Assembly: GCA_022823505.1 (NCBI GenBank)
Contig: JAJEIA010000052.1
Span: 1 to 64,000, forward strand
DNA: 64,000 nucleotides
Direction: 5' to 3'
Source: Dehalococcoidia bacterium
GTDB lineage: Bacteria; Chloroflexota; Dehalococcoidia; Lucifugimonadales; UBA3495
The translations under genes and the position numbers were made by a program. The notes under the pieces were generated by a model. It was not told the DNA's origin. It saw nothing but the letters and a program-made list of their open reading frames with translations, and did not search any database. This document shows, one piece after another, positions 43,806 through 58,100 of this stretch. Within the stretch, counting starts at the first letter, position 1. Each line of letters begins with the position of its first letter.

Positions 43806-44411
43806 ATGGTCACCCGAGGATTCTTCGGACGGCGCCGCGAAACACCCCCTCGCCCCATCCCGCCCGGTCAATACCTGGAACGGGGCTTCCCGGTGCTGAC
43901 CGCGGGTCCCACCCAGCGGGTGCCGCTGGATCAGTGGAGCTTCGTCCTGGTCGGAGCGGAAGGCGAACCGCTGGGCGAGTGGAACTGGGAGCAATTTCGT
44001 TCGTTGCCCGAGACGGAGATTTTCACCGACATCCACTGCGTCACCAAGTGGAGCAAGCTGGACACCACCTGGAAGGGCGTCACCATCGATGATCTCCTGG
44101 TGGCCGCCGGAGTTTCGGATCCACCGCCGTACCTGATGGCCTTTTCCTACGGCGGCTACACCACCAACCTGCCCACGTGGGATGTCCTCGAGGGTCGCGG
44201 CATGGTGGCGTTTGAGTTCGACGGACAGCCCATCGCGGCGGAGCACGGCGGGCCGGCTCGCCTGGTGGTGCCGCACCTGTACTTCTGGAAATCCGCCAAG
44301 TGGCTGCGTGGCATCCGGTTCATGCCCCAGGACCAGCCGGGCTTCTGGGAGCAGTACGGTTACCACATGTACGGGGATCCCTGGAAGGAACAGCGGTATT
44401 GGGGCGATTAG
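43806..44411 (+). CDS. Sulfite-oxidase-like molybdopterin oxidoreductase
   Basis: A 201-residue protein from ATG 43806 (CAGGAG ten bases upstream). It contains the molybdopterin-binding core only: the cysteine in DIHCVTKWS that ligates molybdenum, the strand TTWKGVTIDDLL, GYTTNLPTWD, and the C-terminal LYFWKSAKWLRGIRFM. Family members reduce or oxidise small S- or N-oxides; MsrP is a relative. Its stop overlaps the start of the flavin reductase gene by one base, suggesting an obligate pair. Confidence 0.88.
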   Translation: MVTRGFFGRRRETPPRPIPPGQYLERGFPVLTAGPTQRVPLDQWSFVLVGAEGEPLGEWNWEQFRSLPETEIFTDIHCVTKWSKLDTTWKGVTIDDLLVAAGVSDPPPYLMAFSYGGYTTNLPTWDVLEGRGMVAFEFDGQPIAAEHGGPARLVVPHLYFWKSAKWLRGIRFMPQDQPGFWEQYGYHMYGDPWKEQRYWGD

Positions 44412-45181
44412 TGCCGGACGCGGCCACAGCGCCCGCCACAGCCTGGCAGTTGACCACCGTGGAGCGGGTTACTGTCGAGACCTACCGCGCCAAGACCTTC
44501 ACCCTGCGGCTCGCCGAGCCGCGCCCGTTTCGCGCCGGCCAGCACTACGACGTCCGCCTGACCGCGCCTGACGGCTATCAGGCCCAGCGTTCCTACTCGG
44601 TGGCGTCGGCTCCGGACGATTGCGCGCGCATCGATCTCACGGTGGAGCTGATACCGGATGGCGAGGTTTCCCCGTACTTCCACGAGATGGTGGAGCCGGG
44701 TGATGTCCTGGAAGTGCGTGGCCCCATCGGCGGCCCCTTCACCTGGACACCTGACCTTGCCGGCCCTCTCCTGCTGTTGGCCGGTGGGTCCGGGATCGTC
44801 CCCCTGAAGTCCATCCTGATGCATCGAGATCTGGCAGCCCCGGACACGCCGGCGTTGTTGCTGTACTCGGCGCGCGGCCCGGAGGACATCATCTACCGCA
44901 AGTTCCTGGACGGCGCTGGCCGGCGCAACTCCTGTGTTGCCGTCCGGTGCGCGCTGACCCGACGACAGCCGCCCGGCTGGATCGGATACTCACGCCGGGT
45001 TGATGCGGTCATGGTGCGGGAATGCATCGATGAGCTCATGACGATGCACGGTAGCGACGCCGTTCCCCTGGCCTACGCCTGCGGGCCCACCGGTTTCGTG
45101 GAGACTGCGGCTGACGCCCTGCTGTCCGTCGGCGTCGCCGAATCCGCCATTCGAACGGAGCGGTTCGGGCCGACTCAATAG
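44411..45181 (+). CDS. Ferredoxin-reductase-like FAD/NAD(P)H oxidoreductase
   Basis: A 256-residue flavoprotein from GTG 44411. FAD motif RSYSVAS, phosphate loop GPIGGPFTW, NAD(P) motif LLAGGSGIVPLKSIL, and the C-terminal ACGPTGFVETA. No ferredoxin domain is fused. Translational coupling to the sulfite-oxidase-like gene indicates that it feeds electrons to that molybdenum protein, so the pair probably works as a reductase. Confidence 0.88.
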   Translation: MPDAATAPATAWQLTTVERVTVETYRAKTFTLRLAEPRPFRAGQHYDVRLTAPDGYQAQRSYSVASAPDDCARIDLTVELIPDGEVSPYFHEMVEPGDVLEVRGPIGGPFTWTPDLAGPLLLLAGGSGIVPLKSILMHRDLAAPDTPALLLYSARGPEDIIYRKFLDGAGRRNSCVAVRCALTRRQPPGWIGYSRRVDAVMVRECIDELMTMHGSDAVPLAYACGPTGFVETAADALLSVGVAESAIRTERFGPTQ

Positions 45182-45322: not shown

Positions 45323-46018
45323 TCAATAGCCGGTGCCCAGCTCAGCCAGCCAGTTAGCCACCGGGAGCAGGGTGGACCACAGGATGCCGGGCCGCAGCAC
45401 GTAGTCCGACGCGATGAGGGCCACCAACAGCAGCGGCGCAAACCGCTGGAACCGCTGGTGCGTTTCCGCCGCCGACTCCGGGAGCAACGCGGCCAGCACC
45501 CGGTAGCCGGCCAACGGTGCCAGCGGCAGCACCTGGAACGCGGCCTGCATCAGGTTGTAGATGATCAACAATCCGACCACGTCCGATATCCCCGAGCGCA
45601 GGCCGCCCGTCATCACCAGCGTCAGGGTGTCGGGCGACGGGTAGGTCCAACCAAGCAGGCCGGCCTTGACCGGCGAGGCCAGCAGGAACGCCACCGTGAT
45701 GTTCCCCAGCGGTCCGGCGGACGAGACCACGACCGATGGCCAACGTCCCTGCCGTCCCGGCGGCCCCGGCAATTGGCGGCCCCAGCCGAATCCGGAGACG
45801 GTCGCCAGGATCAGGCCGGCTATATCCAGATGTCGCAGCGGATTGCCGAGCAGGCGTCCCTGGGCGCGAGGCGCAGGGTCTCCCAACAGGGTGGCGATCA
45901 ACGCCTGGAACCACCCGTTGACCCAGATGGCGACCGCGCCGGAAAAGGCGCAGAGCACCACCAGACGCACGAAGGCCCCAATGTCCTCGGGCAGCAGATT
46001 CGCGGACGATATCAGCAT
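45323..46018 (-). CDS. Site-2-protease-like membrane protein lacking its zinc site
   Basis: A 231-residue protein with five to six helices, clearly shaped like the short M50 family: a first motif helix followed by LLGDPAPRAQGRLLGNPLRHLDIAG, then GFGWG, and later NLMQAAFQVLPLAPLAGYRVL. The catalytic HExxH position reads NGWFQ (residues 34-38) and the NPxxDG-type aspartate position reads LAGY, so all zinc ligands are lost. It can hardly be a protease; it may bind peptides or act as a scaffold. Last gene of the minus-strand R2/HEPN-like cluster, 78 bp after its neighbour. Confidence 0.75.
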   Translation of the reverse strand: MLISSANLLPEDIGAFVRLVVLCAFSGAVAIWVNGWFQALIATLLGDPAPRAQGRLLGNPLRHLDIAGLILATVSGFGWGRQLPGPPGRQGRWPSVVVSSAGPLGNITVAFLLASPVKAGLLGWTYPSPDTLTLVMTGGLRSGISDVVGLLIIYNLMQAAFQVLPLAPLAGYRVLAALLPESAAETHQRFQRFAPLLLVALIASDYVLRPGILWSTLLPVANWLAELGTGY

Positions 46019-46096
46019 CAGCGGCGGCTATTTTACGCCATAGCCGCCGCAACGCCCGCACACCCCGGTGCGGGTTCTCGGGTCATTCGAGACCGG

Positions 46097-46549
46097 TCAG
46101 CCCGGTTCGACCCACTGCCCGAAGGATACGCCGCCCGTGTATTGCTCCGGAAGCAGATCGCAAAGGATATCCAACAGCGGTCGGACGTCCGCCAGGGCAT
46201 TTCGGGCGCGTTCCGAGTTCATATAAACTTCGTAGAAGTTGCCGTGCAAACCCTCCGCAGCGCGAAGGCCCCGGTCAATAGTCAGGGCCTGTTCGGGTAG
46301 TTCTGCCATCAACCCTGCGATCGCGTCTCGGATGGCCTCGTGATCATAATGCTCCCATTCACGCAGGGTGGCTACGGCCTTGGTGAGTTGTGCGACCGTG
46401 CCCCAGCCTTTTTCGCCGGCCTGGCAGTAATCACCCTCTGCCAGGTGCGCCGGCCACTTCGACCAGTAATCGCGCGCCTGGGCCAGGTGCTTCATGACGC
46501 GAGCGTCTCTGCGATCCGGCCTTTCAGGCCGGCGGGTTCGTGGCGGCAT
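46097..46549 (-). CDS. HEPN/PaREP1-like small helical protein, second copy
   Basis: A 150-residue all-helical protein (ATG 46549; ATG 46495 would remove a basic N-terminal extension). Shared with the copy at 47844-48221: AGEKGWGTVAQLTKAVATLREWEHYDH against ASEKGWGAAAQMLKSIAEQRGWEHKGH, then GLHGNFYE against SLHTNFYE. This matches my memory of PaREP1/HEPN-like proteins. It starts four bases after the stop of the degenerate R2-like gene. Confidence 0.6.
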   Translation of the reverse strand: MPPRTRRPERPDRRDARVMKHLAQARDYWSKWPAHLAEGDYCQAGEKGWGTVAQLTKAVATLREWEHYDHEAIRDAIAGLMAELPEQALTIDRGLRAAEGLHGNFYEVYMNSERARNALADVRPLLDILCDLLPEQYTGGVSFGQWVEPG

Positions 46550-46553
46550 GTCC

Positions 46554-47765
46554 TTATTCAGCCTGCTGCAACACAGCGGCCAGGTCCGGATGCAGCCCGC
46601 TCTCCTGCTTCTGGATGCCCACGTAGTGCAATCGCGTCAGGTACTGGCGGACGTAGTCCGCGCGCAGTTTGTTTACCGCGGTCATGCCCTCGGTCATCCC
46701 TGCGACCGAGCCTCCGGCGATGATCGCCATGGCTTCCCACAGTACCGGGTCGCGCATCTCGCCTGCCATGTCCTTCTCAATGGAGCCCAGGATCCGTCGC
46801 AGCGACACGCCGAAGTCAACGCCCTTGACGGCGACCGTCAGCTTCAGCATCGCCATGCCGTAGGCCAGGTGTCGAGCCTTGTCCTGCAGGGAAAGGCTGA
46901 ACAGCTTGCGGTCCACCGGGTTGGTGGCGAAGTGCGCCCCGAACCGGTAAAGCAGCATCGTCAGCGTGCCCCGGGCGATGTACAGCGAAACGGAAACTTC
47001 CGGCCAGCCGGCCCGGGTCTCGGTCATGCGCCGGCTCACCATGCCGGGGGATTCCAGACCCAGGGCGCCGCCGTTGCAGAGCGCCCGGTGCCGCATCGCC
47101 TCGAAGTGCCGCGCCGAGTCGAATTCCTGGGTGGCCAGGAACATCTTGGGTTCGATGTAGGCGTAGTTCATGCGGTGCAGCCACAGGCCGATGGTTTCGA
47201 TCTCGGCGGTGGCATGCTGGCCCAACTCGGTGCACAGCTGGCACCATGCCAGTTCCAGGGTCTCCGGCTGGTCGGGAATCTCGTCCCACGGGATGTCCTG
47301 CATGGCGTTCCAGCGGCGCTGGATGGCCTCTTCGTAGAGCCAGGCCGCGTTGTCCGACCATAGCTCATCCTTGCGATTCACTGAGTAGTTGTCCAGGCGT
47401 GGCATTCCCGGCGTGGCAAAGGACCCGCGGGGCATTCGGGTCATCTCCCGGCTCTCCTCGGGGATTTCGCCGTACAGGCCAACGTTGATCCCATCTATGG
47501 TCAGCCCGTGAGCGGTGGGAGTGGCACGGGTTCCCCACTGCCGGGTGTCCTTCATCCAGGGGAACCGCTCGGTCGGAGACGGTGGTGCCTCGGGCTCGGC
47601 CGGCGCCTCTGCGGTCTTGGCGACCTCTGGCTCAGCGGCGGTGTTTTCGGCGACGTTCTGCTGGACGCGTTCTGCGGCCGACGACCGGTAGTTCCCGGTG
47701 GGGTTGCTGTCGTCGACGGGCCCGGCCGGGTCGCTGCTGTTCTGCGGATCATTCTGCGTGGTCAT
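46554..47765 (-). CDS. R2-like ferritin-fold protein with degenerate metal site
   Basis: A 403-residue protein: a disordered Ala/Glu/Pro-rich N-terminus (1-65), then a ferritin-like four-helix core homologous to the protein at 48234-49331. The helix motifs keep both histidines (H220 in EFDSARH and H299 in LQDKARH), but the carboxylates found in the paralogue are A185, S217, A277 and K296. It therefore probably cannot bind a diiron centre in the usual way. Likely a non-catalytic partner or regulator of the intact paralogue. Confidence 0.72.
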   Translation of the reverse strand: MTTQNDPQNSSDPAGPVDDSNPTGNYRSSAAERVQQNVAENTAAEPEVAKTAEAPAEPEAPPSPTERFPWMKDTRQWGTRATPTAHGLTIDGINVGLYGEIPEESREMTRMPRGSFATPGMPRLDNYSVNRKDELWSDNAAWLYEEAIQRRWNAMQDIPWDEIPDQPETLELAWCQLCTELGQHATAEIETIGLWLHRMNYAYIEPKMFLATQEFDSARHFEAMRHRALCNGGALGLESPGMVSRRMTETRAGWPEVSVSLYIARGTLTMLLYRFGAHFATNPVDRKLFSLSLQDKARHLAYGMAMLKLTVAVKGVDFGVSLRRILGSIEKDMAGEMRDPVLWEAMAIIAGGSVAGMTEGMTAVNKLRADYVRQYLTRLHYVGIQKQESGLHPDLAAVLQQAE

Positions 47766-47843
47766 GATGTGTTACCCCAATCAATACGGCCCGTCAATTC
47801 GAATGAGACGGGCCGTGAGCAATGATCGTGCCGCTCGTCGCAG

Positions 47844-48221
47844 CTACTTGAATTGGTTGTTGTGGGCCAGTAGCGGTTCCAAAATGTCCAAAAACTGCCT
47901 GACGTCTTCCAAGCCGTCCGCCACGTCCTCAACAGTGTCCAGATCTTCGTAGAAATTTGTGTGCAGGCTGTCGGCCACTCTGTAGAGACGGCGGATGTTA
48001 CGATCGCCGGTTTCATCGGCCAACCGACTCGCTACCCGCCGGATCAGCCGATGCCCTTTGTGCTCCCATCCTCGCTGCTCGGCGATGGATTTGAGCATCT
48101 GGGCGGCCGCACCCCAGCCTTTCTCAGACGCCTGTTGGGTGTCGCCTTGCGCAAGTTCAACGAAGCCCTGCTCCAGTAGCCTTCGGCTGGCCTCTTGGTA
48201 TGTTTGCGCTTGCGTAACCAT
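47844..48221 (-). CDS. HEPN/PaREP1-like small helical protein, first copy
   Basis: A 125-residue helical protein (MVTQAQTYQEASRRLLEQGF...) whose core AQGDTQQASEKGWGAAAQML and SLHTNFYED motifs match the copy at 46097-46549. Classical HEPN RNases carry R-x4-6-H; no clear one is seen here, so nuclease activity is doubtful. It follows the intact R2-like gene by 12 bp. Confidence 0.6.
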   Translation of the reverse strand: MVTQAQTYQEASRRLLEQGFVELAQGDTQQASEKGWGAAAQMLKSIAEQRGWEHKGHRLIRRVASRLADETGDRNIRRLYRVADSLHTNFYEDLDTVEDVADGLEDVRQFLDILEPLLAHNNQFK

Positions 48222-48233
48222 GGTCCGTGCAGG

Positions 48234-49331
48234 TTACGCCGCTGCCTGGTAGACCTCCAGCAGCGCGGGGTTCACGCGCCCGTTCTCGATGCGGTCGTCG
48301 AAGCCACAGGACTTGAGGCGCTGGAAGTATTCCTTGACCTGGCGCTGGCGGATGGCCGCCAGGATCTTCTGGCCCTCTTCGGCCTTGTCCGCGCCGCCGC
48401 CCAGCAGGATGGCCAGCGACTCGGCAGTCAGGTTGGCGCTGCGGGCCGCCGGGTTCTCGCCGCCGTTGCCTGTGGCCTGCCGGTCCTCAGCCTCGTCCAG
48501 GTAGGCGTGGACCTCTTCCCGCCGCTCCGGCACACACTCGTTCATGTAGCGGGCGTGCAGTACGCCGAAGGCCACGTGGCGCGCCTCGTCCTGGGCCGCG
48601 CGACGGTAGATGGCCTTCTCGGCGTCGTTGTATGCCATGAGCTCGCCCAGGCGGAACAGGGTCAGCACGTTGCCCTCGCCGACGATGTGCAGCCGGCTGG
48701 AAAGCTCGGTGAACTCGCGGGCGTTGTCGGTGCTCCCGCCGGTGACGTCGCTCACCGAGTCGATCATCCGCATCAGGCCGCCGCCGTTGGCCAGCGCCCG
48801 CTTGCGGAACACTTCCATGTGCCGCGACTCGTCCATCACCTGGGTCAGCAGGAACATCCGCACCTCGTGGTAGTCCGGGGACATCTGCGCGATGAACCGG
48901 CCCGGCACGTCGGCGGCGACGAACTCGACCTGGGCGAAGAAGGTGGCCAACTGGCACTGCGCGGCCTCAACGTCGTCGGGCAGCGGGCGCAGCGTCTCCC
49001 ACGGAATGTCGGTGGCCGAGGACCACTGCCGTGAGACGGCCTCCTGGTACAGCTTGGTCAGGTTGAAGCCCCAGACTTCCTTCTTGTCGCGGAAGGTGTA
49101 GGCCCCATATTGCGGAACGCCTTCCCGGGGGATCGCGCCGCGGGTGCGCTGGGTCTGGTTGGGCGACTCGTCCAGCAGGCCGGCGGTGTACTCCGCCAGC
49201 GTGGGGTCGTGCGCCAGTTCCTCTTCGGCGCCGGGAACCTGGTCTTTTATTTGCTGGAGCCACGACAGGCTGAAGCCGTTCTGCAGCGCCTGTTCCATCT
49301 CTACAGTGGTGCGGTCTTGCAAAGTAGCCAT
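48234..49331 (-). CDS. R2-like diiron ferritin-fold oxidoreductase
   Basis: A 365-residue protein of the ribonucleotide-reductase-R2/ferritin-like superfamily. Likely metal ligands are E136 (AQVEF), E168 and H171 (MDESRH), E230 (LGELM), and E249 and H252 (QDEARH), the classical four-helix E, ExxH, E, ExxH order. Not a true NrdB: no large subunit is nearby and the length and N-terminus differ. It could be an oxygenase or desaturase. First gene of the five-gene minus-strand cluster; a repeat and a divergent gene lie upstream. Confidence 0.75.
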   Translation of the reverse strand: MATLQDRTTVEMEQALQNGFSLSWLQQIKDQVPGAEEELAHDPTLAEYTAGLLDESPNQTQRTRGAIPREGVPQYGAYTFRDKKEVWGFNLTKLYQEAVSRQWSSATDIPWETLRPLPDDVEAAQCQLATFFAQVEFVAADVPGRFIAQMSPDYHEVRMFLLTQVMDESRHMEVFRKRALANGGGLMRMIDSVSDVTGGSTDNAREFTELSSRLHIVGEGNVLTLFRLGELMAYNDAEKAIYRRAAQDEARHVAFGVLHARYMNECVPERREEVHAYLDEAEDRQATGNGGENPAARSANLTAESLAILLGGGADKAEEGQKILAAIRQRQVKEYFQRLKSCGFDDRIENGRVNPALLEVYQAAA

Positions 49332-49442
49332 AGGTAGTCCTTCTTCGCCGATGATGACGGAATTATGCTCGCAATGTACCCGATGGCGCGGTGAAGCGTC
49401 AAGCGTGGTGTCGCGGGAGTCAAGGCCTTGTCAAAGTTAATT

Positions 49443-49520
49443 CGTCATTCCCGCTTATGCGGGAATCTAGGAGGTCGTAGTGATCGGATTGTTCTAGATT
49501 CCGGCGAAACCGGAATTACG
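49443..49520. repeat. CGTCATTCC-type interspersed palindrome, copy 3
   Basis: CGTCATTCCCGCTTATGCGG with a GGAATCTAG word is inverted relative to the CTAGATTCCGGCG...CCGGAATTACG arm. It fills most of the gap between the R2-like operon and the divergent tcmP gene; the rest of that about 300-bp gap shows nothing else. Confidence 0.7.
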
Positions 49521-49640
49521 GTTCGGGGTGAAAGGCCGCCAACCTGCGCTTTGAAAAGGCCCTGCGCGGGAGTGCGTTGCGGGAATGTGTCTAGCCTGAT
49601 ACTCTCCATGATAGATCAAATATTCTATCGAGGCTATGGC

Positions 49641-50540
49641 ATGACTAGCGAAGCAATCCATCCCGAGCGTTCTTGGACGGAGGAAAAGCTACAGATTCTC
49701 GAAGGCTACTTGAAGGCTTACACGACCGCACTGAAGAACCGAGATTTCCATCTCACTTACGTGGATGCGTTCGCTGGCACCGGGTATGTCAGCCGTGACG
49801 CAACGCAAAGCCTAGCGACTTGGGGTGATGACCTTGATGACATGTCGAGGGACGTCTTGCAAGGTTCTACACGACGGGCAATCGCGGTCGACGACAAGCC
49901 GTTCGACAGTTTTATATTTGTGGAACAAAATCCTGAACACGCAGCGGCTCTGCGCAGAATGCAGCATGAATTCGGAGAGCGCGACATTAAAGTTGAGCGG
50001 GCAGAGGCTAACGGATTTCTACAAATGTGGTGCGACGCCCAAAATCGCCTGCTTGGGGTCCCTTGGGATAAGCCAGGGAACCGCCAGCGTGCCGTCGTGT
50101 TCCTCGACCCCTTTGCCACACAAGTCGAATGGCAAACCGTATCGTCCATTGCGAGAACACAATCCATTGACCTATGGATTTTATTCCCATTGTCTGCGAT
50201 CACGAGGATATTGCCTCGCAACCGCCAGCCTGACGAAAGCTATGCTGCAACCCTTGATAACATTTACGGAAGTGACGAATGGCGTACCCTGTATCGAACC
50301 AGAGTCCGGCGGACGCTGTTCGGTGACGAATTAGAGATCATTCGTGCCGAGCAAGAGGCTATTGTGCAGCTGTATTTGGAAAGGCTGAGTTCTGTTTTCG
50401 GCGCGGTTTCACCATCACCAAAATGGTTCAATAATTCGCGCAATTCTCCGCTGTTTGCATTCATGTTCGCTGCAGCCAACCCAGGTCGCGGCGGGCGGAT
50501 AGCGCTCGACATCGCCAACCACCTGTTAAGAAACTGGTAA
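49641..50540 (+). CDS. tcmP: Three-Cys-motif partner protein TcmP
   Basis: A 299-residue protein from ATG 49641. The N-terminus WTEEKLQILEGYLKAYTTAL and YVDAFAGTGYV, and later VFLDPFATQVEW, match TcmP; the DAFAGTG and LDPFA motifs resemble those of Rossmann methyltransferases. TcmP genes are found next to genes for a three-cysteine protein (Gp37/Gp68, DUF5131), as here, three bases downstream. The molecular role of the pair is not established. GC content is lower than that of the surroundings. Confidence 0.85.
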   Translation: MTSEAIHPERSWTEEKLQILEGYLKAYTTALKNRDFHLTYVDAFAGTGYVSRDATQSLATWGDDLDDMSRDVLQGSTRRAIAVDDKPFDSFIFVEQNPEHAAALRRMQHEFGERDIKVERAEANGFLQMWCDAQNRLLGVPWDKPGNRQRAVVFLDPFATQVEWQTVSSIARTQSIDLWILFPLSAITRILPRNRQPDESYAATLDNIYGSDEWRTLYRTRVRRTLFGDELEIIRAEQEAIVQLYLERLSSVFGAVSPSPKWFNNSRNSPLFAFMFAAANPGRGGRIALDIANHLLRNW

Positions 50541-50543
50541 CTC

Positions 50544-51251
50544 ATGGCCGCCTCAAAAATCGAGTGGACCGACGCAACCTGGAACCCGGTCACTGGCTGC
50601 AACAAGATCAGCCCGGGTTGCAAGCACTGCTACGCCGAGCGCCTTTCCAGGCGTCTCAAGGCTACCGGTATGGACAAGTACCGGAACGGTTTTGCCGTGA
50701 CGTTGCACCCTGACACGCTGGATATCCCGTTGCGGTGGCGCAAGCCCCGCTCCATCTTCGTCAACTCCATGAGCGACCTTTTCCACGATGAGGTGCCCAA
50801 CGAGTTCATCGCGCAGGTTTTCGACGTAATGACCCGTGCTGACTGGCATCGTTACCAGGTGCTTACCAAGCGTCCGGAGCGCGTGGCCAGTTTGAATCCG
50901 CAACTGGAGTGGCCCGACCAGGTCTGGATGGGCGTCAGCGTTGAATCAATGGACTACATCCACCGTATCGACCTGCTGCGCGAGACCGACGCGACGGTAA
51001 AGTTCCTGTCCCTGGAACCGCTGCTGGGTCCCTTGCCCGATATGGACTTGTCAGAAATCGATTGGGTCATCGTGGGCGGCGAATCCGGCCCAGGCGCGCG
51101 TCCCATGCAGGCTGATTGGGCTCGCGACATCCGCGACCAGTGCCAGGCTGCCGGCGTACCGTTCTACTTCAAGCAATGGGGCGGCGTCTTCAAGAAACGA
51201 CACGGCCGCGCCTTGGACGGCAGAACTTGGGACGCAATGCCGCTGCTATAA
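50544..51251 (+). CDS. DUF5131 / phage Gp37-Gp68 family three-Cys protein
   Basis: A 235-residue protein with the cysteine cluster [17 protein letters not shown] near residue 20, which could hold an iron-sulfur cluster as in radical-SAM-like proteins, then [43 protein letters not shown] and [14 protein letters not shown]. Full length for the family. It forms a two-gene operon with tcmP. Found in phages and defence-like islands; biochemical function unknown. Confidence 0.88.
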
Positions 51252-51283
51252 TCACAACGGATAGATACATAGGAGCAACCGTT

Positions 51284-51871
51284 ATGGACTGGCAAGATCG
51301 GATTGAAAAAGTGCCGGGTGTTTTGAGCGGCAAGCCTGTAATAAAGAACACCCGGATCTCCGTTGAGCAGATCGTGGGGCATCTCAACGGCTCTTGGACT
51401 GAGGATGACATCATCTCCGGTTACGACATCACCGCGGAGGATATTGAAGCCTGTCGCAAATTTGCCGCCACCGGGGAAGCGCTGTCTCCAACGACTTGGG
51501 CCGAATTCGAAGCCGCCGTTTTTAGCGACGACGACCAGCGACGCAAGCAAATCGTGCTGTACTGTGAGCGCCATCGCAACAAAACTTTGCAGATCTCAGA
51601 TTGGCAAGAGCGCATCGAGCAAGTGCCCGTCGTACTCAGCGGCAAGCCAATAATCAAGGGGACCCGTATCTCTGTAGAACAAATCGTTGGCCACCTCTAC
51701 GGCGGCTGGAATGAGGATGACATCATCACCAGCTACTCTCACCTCACCCCAGAGGACATTGAGGCCTGCCGCCAATTCGCCGCCACTGGCAAACCTCTGT
51801 CTCCGACAACTTGGACCGAATTCGAAGCCAACGTTTTTGGCGACCGCCAGCCGGGTAAACAAAAGGCGTAG
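51284..51871 (+). CDS. Antitoxin with two fused DUF433 domains
   Basis: A 195-residue protein from ATG 51284 (AGGAG eight bases upstream). Two homologous halves, about 2-82 and 106-188, each contain V-LSGKP-IK-TRISVEQIVGHL and EDIEACR-FAATG-LSPTTW. DUF433 proteins are usually a single copy of about 75 residues and act as DNA-binding antitoxins. A 22-residue linker (QIVLYCERHRNK...) joins the copies. The toxin gene starts seven bases downstream. Confidence 0.85.
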   Translation: MDWQDRIEKVPGVLSGKPVIKNTRISVEQIVGHLNGSWTEDDIISGYDITAEDIEACRKFAATGEALSPTTWAEFEAAVFSDDDQRRKQIVLYCERHRNKTLQISDWQERIEQVPVVLSGKPIIKGTRISVEQIVGHLYGGWNEDDIITSYSHLTPEDIEACRQFAATGKPLSPTTWTEFEANVFGDRQPGKQKA

Positions 51872-57701: not shown

Positions 57702-57730
57702 AAAAAAGCCCGACCCCGAAGGGACGGGTT
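57702..57730 (-). terminator. T-box-controlled terminator of the ilv operon
   Basis: On the minus strand CCCGTCCC-TTC-GGGGTCGGG is followed by CTTTTTTG. It competes with the antiterminator that uses the T-box sequence at 57737-57753. Confidence 0.85.
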
Positions 57731-57975
57731 GTGATTCCCGCGGTACCACCCTTCTTTTCCGCGCTCCGCTCATTGCCTGACACGTCCCTGGCGAGCGCTC
57801 AACGCGAAACTCTTTGTACACAGCCGTTATCGGAGCCGACCCGCTGTCCCTACGCACGCTGTCGCGCTTCAGGCCAGTCGCTCAGGGGCGAGTTCGGAGT
57901 TTCCGGCCGCCGACTTCCACCAACCGTCGGCTCTCTATGAGGCCTTCCGCGCCTACTACTCCCCGTCACCGCGAT
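57702..57975 (-). promoter_or_regulatory. T-box riboswitch leader of ilvB, probable leucine specifier
   Basis: The conserved T-box AAGGGTGGTACCGCGGG is read on the minus strand at 57753-57737, just before the terminator. Upstream in the RNA are the stem I elements GGGGAGTAGTAG (near 57960), AGAGAGCCGAC with GGTTGGTGG, and CGAACTCGCCCCTGAG. The last would place CTC (57892-57890) as specifier, i.e. tRNA-Leu(GAG); this assignment is by analogy. Uncharged tRNA would stabilise the antiterminator and switch the operon on. Confidence 0.85.
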
Positions 57976-58100
57976 AAAACTGCCGGATATGCTAACACCC
58001 GCCCCAAATGCTGTCAACGAAAACCGTAACGCGCAACCGACCAATTACGGGCCTCGACACACCCCCGATTGGTCTCACGCGCGTCCGGTTCCGCCTGCTT

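Follow-up and report, generated by a model that had tools for sequence, protein, structure and literature searches.

Which genes of a compact bacterial gene run belong together in function? This question is raised by five genes that follow one another on the minus strand of a 64-kb stretch of DNA (here called the window) from a 3.7-Mb draft genome of the class Dehalococcoidia. A first-pass annotation had read them as a repeated module, in which an R2-like diiron protein and a small HEPN-like protein each occur twice and are accompanied by an inactive M50-type membrane protein. Its description of the locus proved accurate. The five open reading frames lie in one run with gaps of exactly 12, 78, 4 and 78 bp (Table 1). 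One R2-like copy (R2A) keeps E136, E168xxH171, E219 and E249xxH252, the other (R2B) has lost these ligands and reads A, S..H, G and K..H, and the M50-like protein lacks HExxH, the position being GWFQA or GWFQS in nine of nine aligned copies. The near relatives of the R2A locus are Dehalococcoidia/SAR202 metagenome assemblies with 92-99% identity, and nearly all sequences compared here come from metagenome assemblies.

Table 1. Features of the five-gene run, in window coordinates.
Feature	Position	Strand	Remarks
R2A, catalytic-type R2-like (ferritin-fold) diiron protein, 365 aa	48234..49331	-	ligands E136, E168, H171, E219, E249, H252
HA, PaREP1/HEPN-family probable passenger between R2A and R2B	47844..48221	-	PF05942 61.6 bits, PF05168 31.1 bits
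Conserved inverted repeat ACGGCCCGTC...GACGGGCCGT in the gap ahead of R2B	47786..47816	-	GC-rich
R2B, ligandless R2-like partner (predicted pseudoenzyme subunit), 403 aa	46554..47765	-	site A/S-H/G/K-H
HB, second PaREP1-family probable passenger, past R2B	46097..46549	-	PF05942 42.3 bits
M50-like membrane protein without HExxH	45323..46018	-	PF02163 17.5 bits, under cut-off

An Rfam scan of the window returned only a T-box leader (57717-57978, minus strand; RF00230, 102.5 bits) and a tRNA, both distant from the five genes. A FAD/NAD oxidoreductase gene (44300-45181, plus strand) was considered as electron donor and rejected, being on the opposite strand, adjoining a molybdopterin protein and showing no sign of linkage. 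On the other flank (49428-51251, plus strand), as judged by eye, a three-Cys-motif-partner-like gene precedes a DUF5131/Gp37-like one, a combination that occurs near defence genes, and an open reading frame at 51116-51871 (plus strand) has two DUF433-like domain copies arranged head-to-tail. Viral contigs searched for R2A relatives yielded none, which argues against a link to phages.

HA and HB both pass the cut-off of the Pfam PaREP1 family (PF05942, 24.4 bits), HA also that of the HEPN family (PF05168), and each carries an RX4-6H motif (RVADSLH and RAAEGLH, respectively). Among the near relatives, HA occupies the site between R2A and R2B only in the window and in L147. A HigBA-like pair, recognised by eye, replaces it in three relatives (L143:9229-9919, L144:9232-9889 and L146:9228-9885), L152 has yet another gene there, and the remaining near relatives have a short gap with the conserved inverted repeat; the R2A-R2B gap is thus a small insertion hot spot. 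HB is present in the window, L143 and L145 and absent from L144, L146, L147 and L149-L154, so that the presence of PaREP1 genes varies independently among genomes whose R2A proteins are more than 90% identical. Beside the R2 pair of distant genomes no PaREP1/HEPN genes were found. The host genome, on the other hand, holds 39 PaREP1 matches, only two of them inside the window, and the neighbours identified by eye include a probable glycyl-tRNA synthetase, a tRNA thiouridylase and luciferase-like monooxygenases. Relatives (G570-G581) carry 10 to 58 copies per genome, and two outgroup genomes (L155 and L159) gave no match. In Pyrobaculum, paREP genes likewise mark regions that one species has and another lacks (PMC3558965). 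Taken together, the sequence comparisons suggest that in these bacteria PaREP1 genes travel as small mobile passengers.

These results bear directly on the proposal that the HEPN-like proteins are matched helical partners of the R2-like proteins, which they do not support: distant pairs do without them, close relatives are polymorphic for them, and a HigBA-like pair can take the same site. The module is repeated insofar as R2-like and HEPN-like genes each occur twice, but it did not arise in one duplication event, since the R2A/R2B split predates the spread of the pair (see below) and HA and HB, at 46% identity, resemble one another less than each resembles other PaREP1 paralogues (62% and 69%). 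Co-duplication of the HEPN-like and R2-like genes is ruled out by these identities together with the R2 tree.

The M50-like protein stays below the PF02163 cut-off of 27.2 bits, and its gene is found beside the R2 pair in the near-relative clade only, where it is missing at L152. In most copies a TAAAAT/TAGAAT-like element lies close upstream of its start; in L149 and L153 the gene starts a few bases past R2B. With this clade-confined distribution and, mostly, an upstream element of its own, the gene is not supported as the membrane component of the system for which it had been taken. It would be conceivable that two R2-like, two matched HEPN-like and one inactive M50 protein act together after all, for example in defence or stress, as the gene order in the window is compact and the PaREP1/HEPN family, which shows lineage-specific expansions, has relatives linked to conflict systems (PMC3710099). 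Given the absence of PaREP1 genes from the R2 pair elsewhere, their polymorphism in near relatives, the 39 copies beside unrelated genes and the clade-specific M50-like gene, we regard such joint action as very improbable.

In relatives without HA, the inverted repeat sits directly between R2A and R2B. Across 11 sequences, 99% of cells retain its 10-bp stem; covariation of the stem is not significant because eight of the ten pairs never vary. The repeat is possibly an attenuator or a terminator. A promoter and terminator scan gave matches no commoner than in shuffled sequence.

What remains of the run is the R2 pair. Judged by its sequence, R2A is a remote R2-like protein: it matches the NCBIfam R2-like oxidase model with an E-value of 2.3e-8 (33.6 bits against a cut-off of 194), its sole Pfam match is Ribonuc_red_sm (E = 0.0096, below cut-off), and the best sequence match in the PDB is a VlmB homologue (E = 1.7e-4). 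Two DExRH motifs, D167-E168-x-R170-H171 and D248-E249-x-R251-H252, are present in 41 of 41 R2A sequences. The position of the radical tyrosine, four residues past the first ligand histidine, is phenylalanine in every one of these 41. A139 is invariant and L214 nearly so; they stand at what we take to be the positions of the Val-Tyr ether cross-link of R2lox. Comparison with near relatives gave a dN/dS of about 0.05.

R2B is clearly homologous to R2A (E = 1.7e-38, 32% identity; 28% over 335 columns in a profile comparison). The second-shell Asp and Arg of both motifs are retained in 41-42 of 42 R2B sequences, and a new Arg has appeared just ahead of the lost E219 position in 41 of 42, which argues that the site has been rebuilt rather than decayed. 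Against relatives with more than 90% identity in R2A, the dN/dS of R2B is about 0.08-0.15. R2B evolves approximately 1.8 times faster than R2A, and both proteins are under purifying selection. The reading of R2B as a decaying pseudogene is rejected, given a dN/dS near 0.1 in comparison with close relatives. The predicted structure of R2B (pLDDT 85.6; this and the model described below are of single chains) has VlmB (Z 23.4) and R2lox (Z 22.9) as nearest folds in structural alignment, and an aldehyde-deformylating oxygenase fits about equally well. Foldseek, in contrast to the structural alignment, ranks class Ie ribonucleotide reductase R2 proteins at the top. These also lack carboxylate ligands, and with Lys in place of the final Glu in 27 of the 42 sequences one could imagine R2B as a metal-free redox protein with a DOPA radical. 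We consider this far-fetched: the Lys is not invariant, the 42 sequences have Phe (28), Tyr (8) or another residue (6) at the His+4 position, and a class Ie radical protein was rejected since the radical Tyr is not conserved.

At 65 of 79 loci with an R2A relative, a ligandless R2B follows R2A in the same direction, in 56 cases within 150 bp; at seven of the remaining loci the contig ends first, and at the other seven no partner is in reach. The hosts belong to the Chloroflexota and Gammaproteobacteria, with one Acidobacteriota metagenome-assembled genome (Vicinamibacterales). Catalytic copies read EEHEEH, and not one carboxylate was found at the four Glu positions of the 65 adjacent partners. 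Six genomes of the class were searched copy by copy; several paralogous R2 pairs can occur in one genome, and their partners differ in the substitutions at the site (GAKKSH, GGLDIH, AHHAKH, SLHGLQ, ALHDRM); some of these (GGLDIH, ALHDRM) have Asp at the E219 position. In the tree, A and B sequences each form essentially one clade with mirrored branching, and the A and B distances correlate with 0.879, compared with a maximum of 0.239 when the labels were permuted. From a phylogenetic perspective, R2A and R2B thus appear to descend from one ancient duplication that predates the spread of the pair over several phyla. Within the class, 117 of 393 genomes have R2A relatives, as opposed to none of 20 other genomes listed from the family and order of the host. 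The idea of an enzyme/pseudoenzyme pair has therefore held up, as a conserved and apparently undescribed pair. The co-location in distant genomes that had been suggested as a check exists for the two R2-like proteins, not for the HEPN-like genes, which are absent there beside the pair.

A different explanation would be that R2A alone forms a homodimeric oxygenase, with R2B as a paralogue outside the active enzyme, a regulator or sensor that binds the substrate or competes for R2A. The faster evolution of R2B and the existence of R2A-like singletons are in line with this, as are four genomes (G584-G587) in which a copy of R2A stands apart from R2B and its FmdB-type and SCP2-like neighbours (see below). 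All parts are retained in these four, and G584 also carries a cut-off R2A adjoining R2B. What makes a separate role of R2B unlikely is that R2B is present in six of six examined genomes with a partnerless R2A copy (in one, apparently, as fragments at contig ends only), that the gaps between the genes are tight and their order conserved across phyla, and that the pairs duplicate together.

Two further arrangements were observed. L195 has two intact R2A genes in tandem (L195:7740-10687) without an adjoining ligandless copy; the apparent R2B fragments at contig ends belong to this genome. A sister subfamily of single R2-like proteins, with the full ligand set but no adjacent pseudo-partner, is encoded at L050:6917-8155, L051:6629-7840 and L052:1-996, near what by eye are acyl-CoA dehydrogenase-like and substrate-binding-protein-like genes.

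If not HEPN-like proteins, which genes accompany the pair? Downstream of R2B, distant genomes carry a gene for an FmdB-type zinc ribbon and one or two genes for an SCP2-like protein of 130-150 aa; which of the two kinds comes first varies. The SCP2-like protein has no match in Pfam or NCBIfam, SCP2 models included; its predicted structure (pLDDT 93.3) has the SCP2 fold, with Z 13.1 to 2cx7. The host genome contains exactly one SCP2-like gene, which adjoins a zinc-ribbon gene on another contig than the R2 pair, and each of 12 near relatives tested likewise has a single SCP2-like gene apart from the pair. In G584-G587, R2B, the zinc ribbon and the SCP2-like gene stand together upstream of a gene that resembles CaiB by eye. 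The genes have thus become separated at different points without the loss of any part, which argues for a joint function. Across the 393 genomes of the class, 110 have both R2A and the SCP2-like gene, 7 only R2, 3 only the SCP2-like gene and 273 neither, counts that ignore phylogeny. The co-conserved partners of the R2 pair are the SCP2-fold protein and the FmdB-type zinc ribbon, which here lie outside the window.

The wider surroundings give a hint of the chemistry. The R2B-SCP2-FmdB operons often continue with a gene for a CoA-transferase III or one for a sodium:solute symporter, and a thiolase together with a ChsH2-type protein adjoins the operon in L049 and lies near it in L048. This thiolase/ChsH2-type pair and the CoA-transferases might weakly point to a CoA-linked or lipid-like substrate. 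No reductase, ferredoxin or effector gene was recognised in the recurrent neighbour clusters at the 79 loci. The same neighbourhoods bear on another notion, namely that the pair resembles the azoxy synthase VlmB and acts in biosynthesis or N-oxidation, not as an oxygenase of catabolism or of lipids. Among solved structures VlmB comes closest to R2A in sequence, and it is one of the nearest folds to R2B, but its E-values are marginal (1e-4), and R2lox and aldehyde-deformylating oxygenase fit R2B similarly. As the neighbours include CoA-transferases and, at single loci, the thiolase and ChsH2-type protein, and N-N pathway genes were not recognised among the recurrent ones, we deem a VlmB-like role rather improbable.

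We propose that R2A and R2B form a heteromeric diiron oxygenase of the PaaA/PaaC kind, in which R2B is an inactive subunit and the SCP2-fold protein supplies the substrate, and we assign this reading a probability of roughly 0.64. The tandem R2A genes of L195, the single R2-like proteins, the Asp at the E219 position of some paralogous partners and the lack of a recognised reductase or ferredoxin among the recurrent neighbours count against it. R2A would bind two metals via its six ligands, as a diiron or Mn/Fe centre, and activate O2. R2B, whose fold and second-shell Asp and Arg persist around a metal site without carboxylates, would join R2A in a complex and probably complete the site for the substrate or the donor. 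PaaC plays such a part for PaaA, and in methane monooxygenase (MMO) the beta subunit does so for alpha. The SCP2-fold protein, in one or two copies, would present a hydrophobic substrate, perhaps a lipid or an acyl-CoA, and the FmdB-type zinc ribbon may be a further accessory. In the host genome this operon would be split with all four genes retained, the PaREP1/HEPN genes would be passengers, and the M50-like gene a clade-specific neighbour.

Pairs of catalytic and inactive diiron subunits are of a kind already known. The R2 pair and its SCP2-fold partner stayed below the cut-offs of all curated family models tested, and neither was found in the literature searched. Carriers of the pair include many marine and sponge-associated bacteria, and the SCP2-like gene is nearly always in the same genome. 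In the dark ocean SAR202 bacteria are plentiful, and expansions of flavin and Rieske oxygenase paralogues have been used to argue for their role in carbon cycling (PMC6946804, PMC5395668); term searches in these two papers did not find a ribonucleotide-reductase-like or ferritin-type family. It is tempting to speculate, at slightly less than even odds, that the genes represent an undescribed class of ferritin-fold oxygenases, made up of an obligate catalytic/pseudoenzyme pair with a dedicated SCP2-fold carrier, pair-duplicated in SAR202-type Dehalococcoidia, shared with marine Gammaproteobacteria and oxidising lipid-like organic matter. If so, these bacteria would possess a so far uncounted oxygenase family for such matter. 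A further paired oxygenase family in 117 of 393 genomes of the class, with its conserved inactive member and a partner resembling lipid carriers, would add to the known pairings of live and dead diiron subunits, and it is directly testable.

Several known systems invite comparison. In phenylacetyl-CoA epoxidase (PaaABCE), the catalytic ferritin-fold diiron subunit PaaA and the structural subunit PaaC of the same fold are encoded in one operon (PMC4498308). R2A and R2B likewise combine a catalytic-type and a same-fold ligandless member in one operon; they differ in having no Pfam match to the Paa family and in being more alike (28-34% identity, versus 17% for PaaA/PaaC). PaaB and PaaE are not among the recurrent neighbours, and SCP2-like and FmdB genes accompany the pair instead. 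The hydroxylases of bacterial multicomponent monooxygenases (for example MMOH) have an alpha subunit with two DExRH motifs and a beta subunit without metal ligands. R2A shares the two motifs, whereas no Pfam model of this family matches R2A or R2B at E-values up to 1, and their reductase and effector genes were not recognised among the recurrent neighbours at the 79 loci. Yeast ribonucleotide reductase Rnr2/Rnr4 is a pair of R2 paralogues with one member devoid of metal ligands, from which R2A departs by the Phe at the radical-Tyr position (41/41). R2lox resembles the pair in fold (Z about 22.9 for R2B) and in the six-ligand pattern; it is set apart by the low NCBIfam score of R2A (33.6 versus 194 bits) and by Ala139 and Leu214 at the presumed cross-link Val/Tyr positions, and we know of no pseudo-partner of R2lox. 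VlmB is the best PDB sequence match of R2A, albeit with a marginal E-value, and the top fold for R2B, and to our knowledge it has neither a pseudo-partner nor an SCP2-like gene. Finally, the accessory protein has the predicted fold of the SCP2/UbiJ lipid carriers (Z 13.1 to 2cx7), of which UbiJ serves ubiquinone synthesis. Unlike these, it falls outside the Pfam and NCBIfam families and is tied to a diiron pair.
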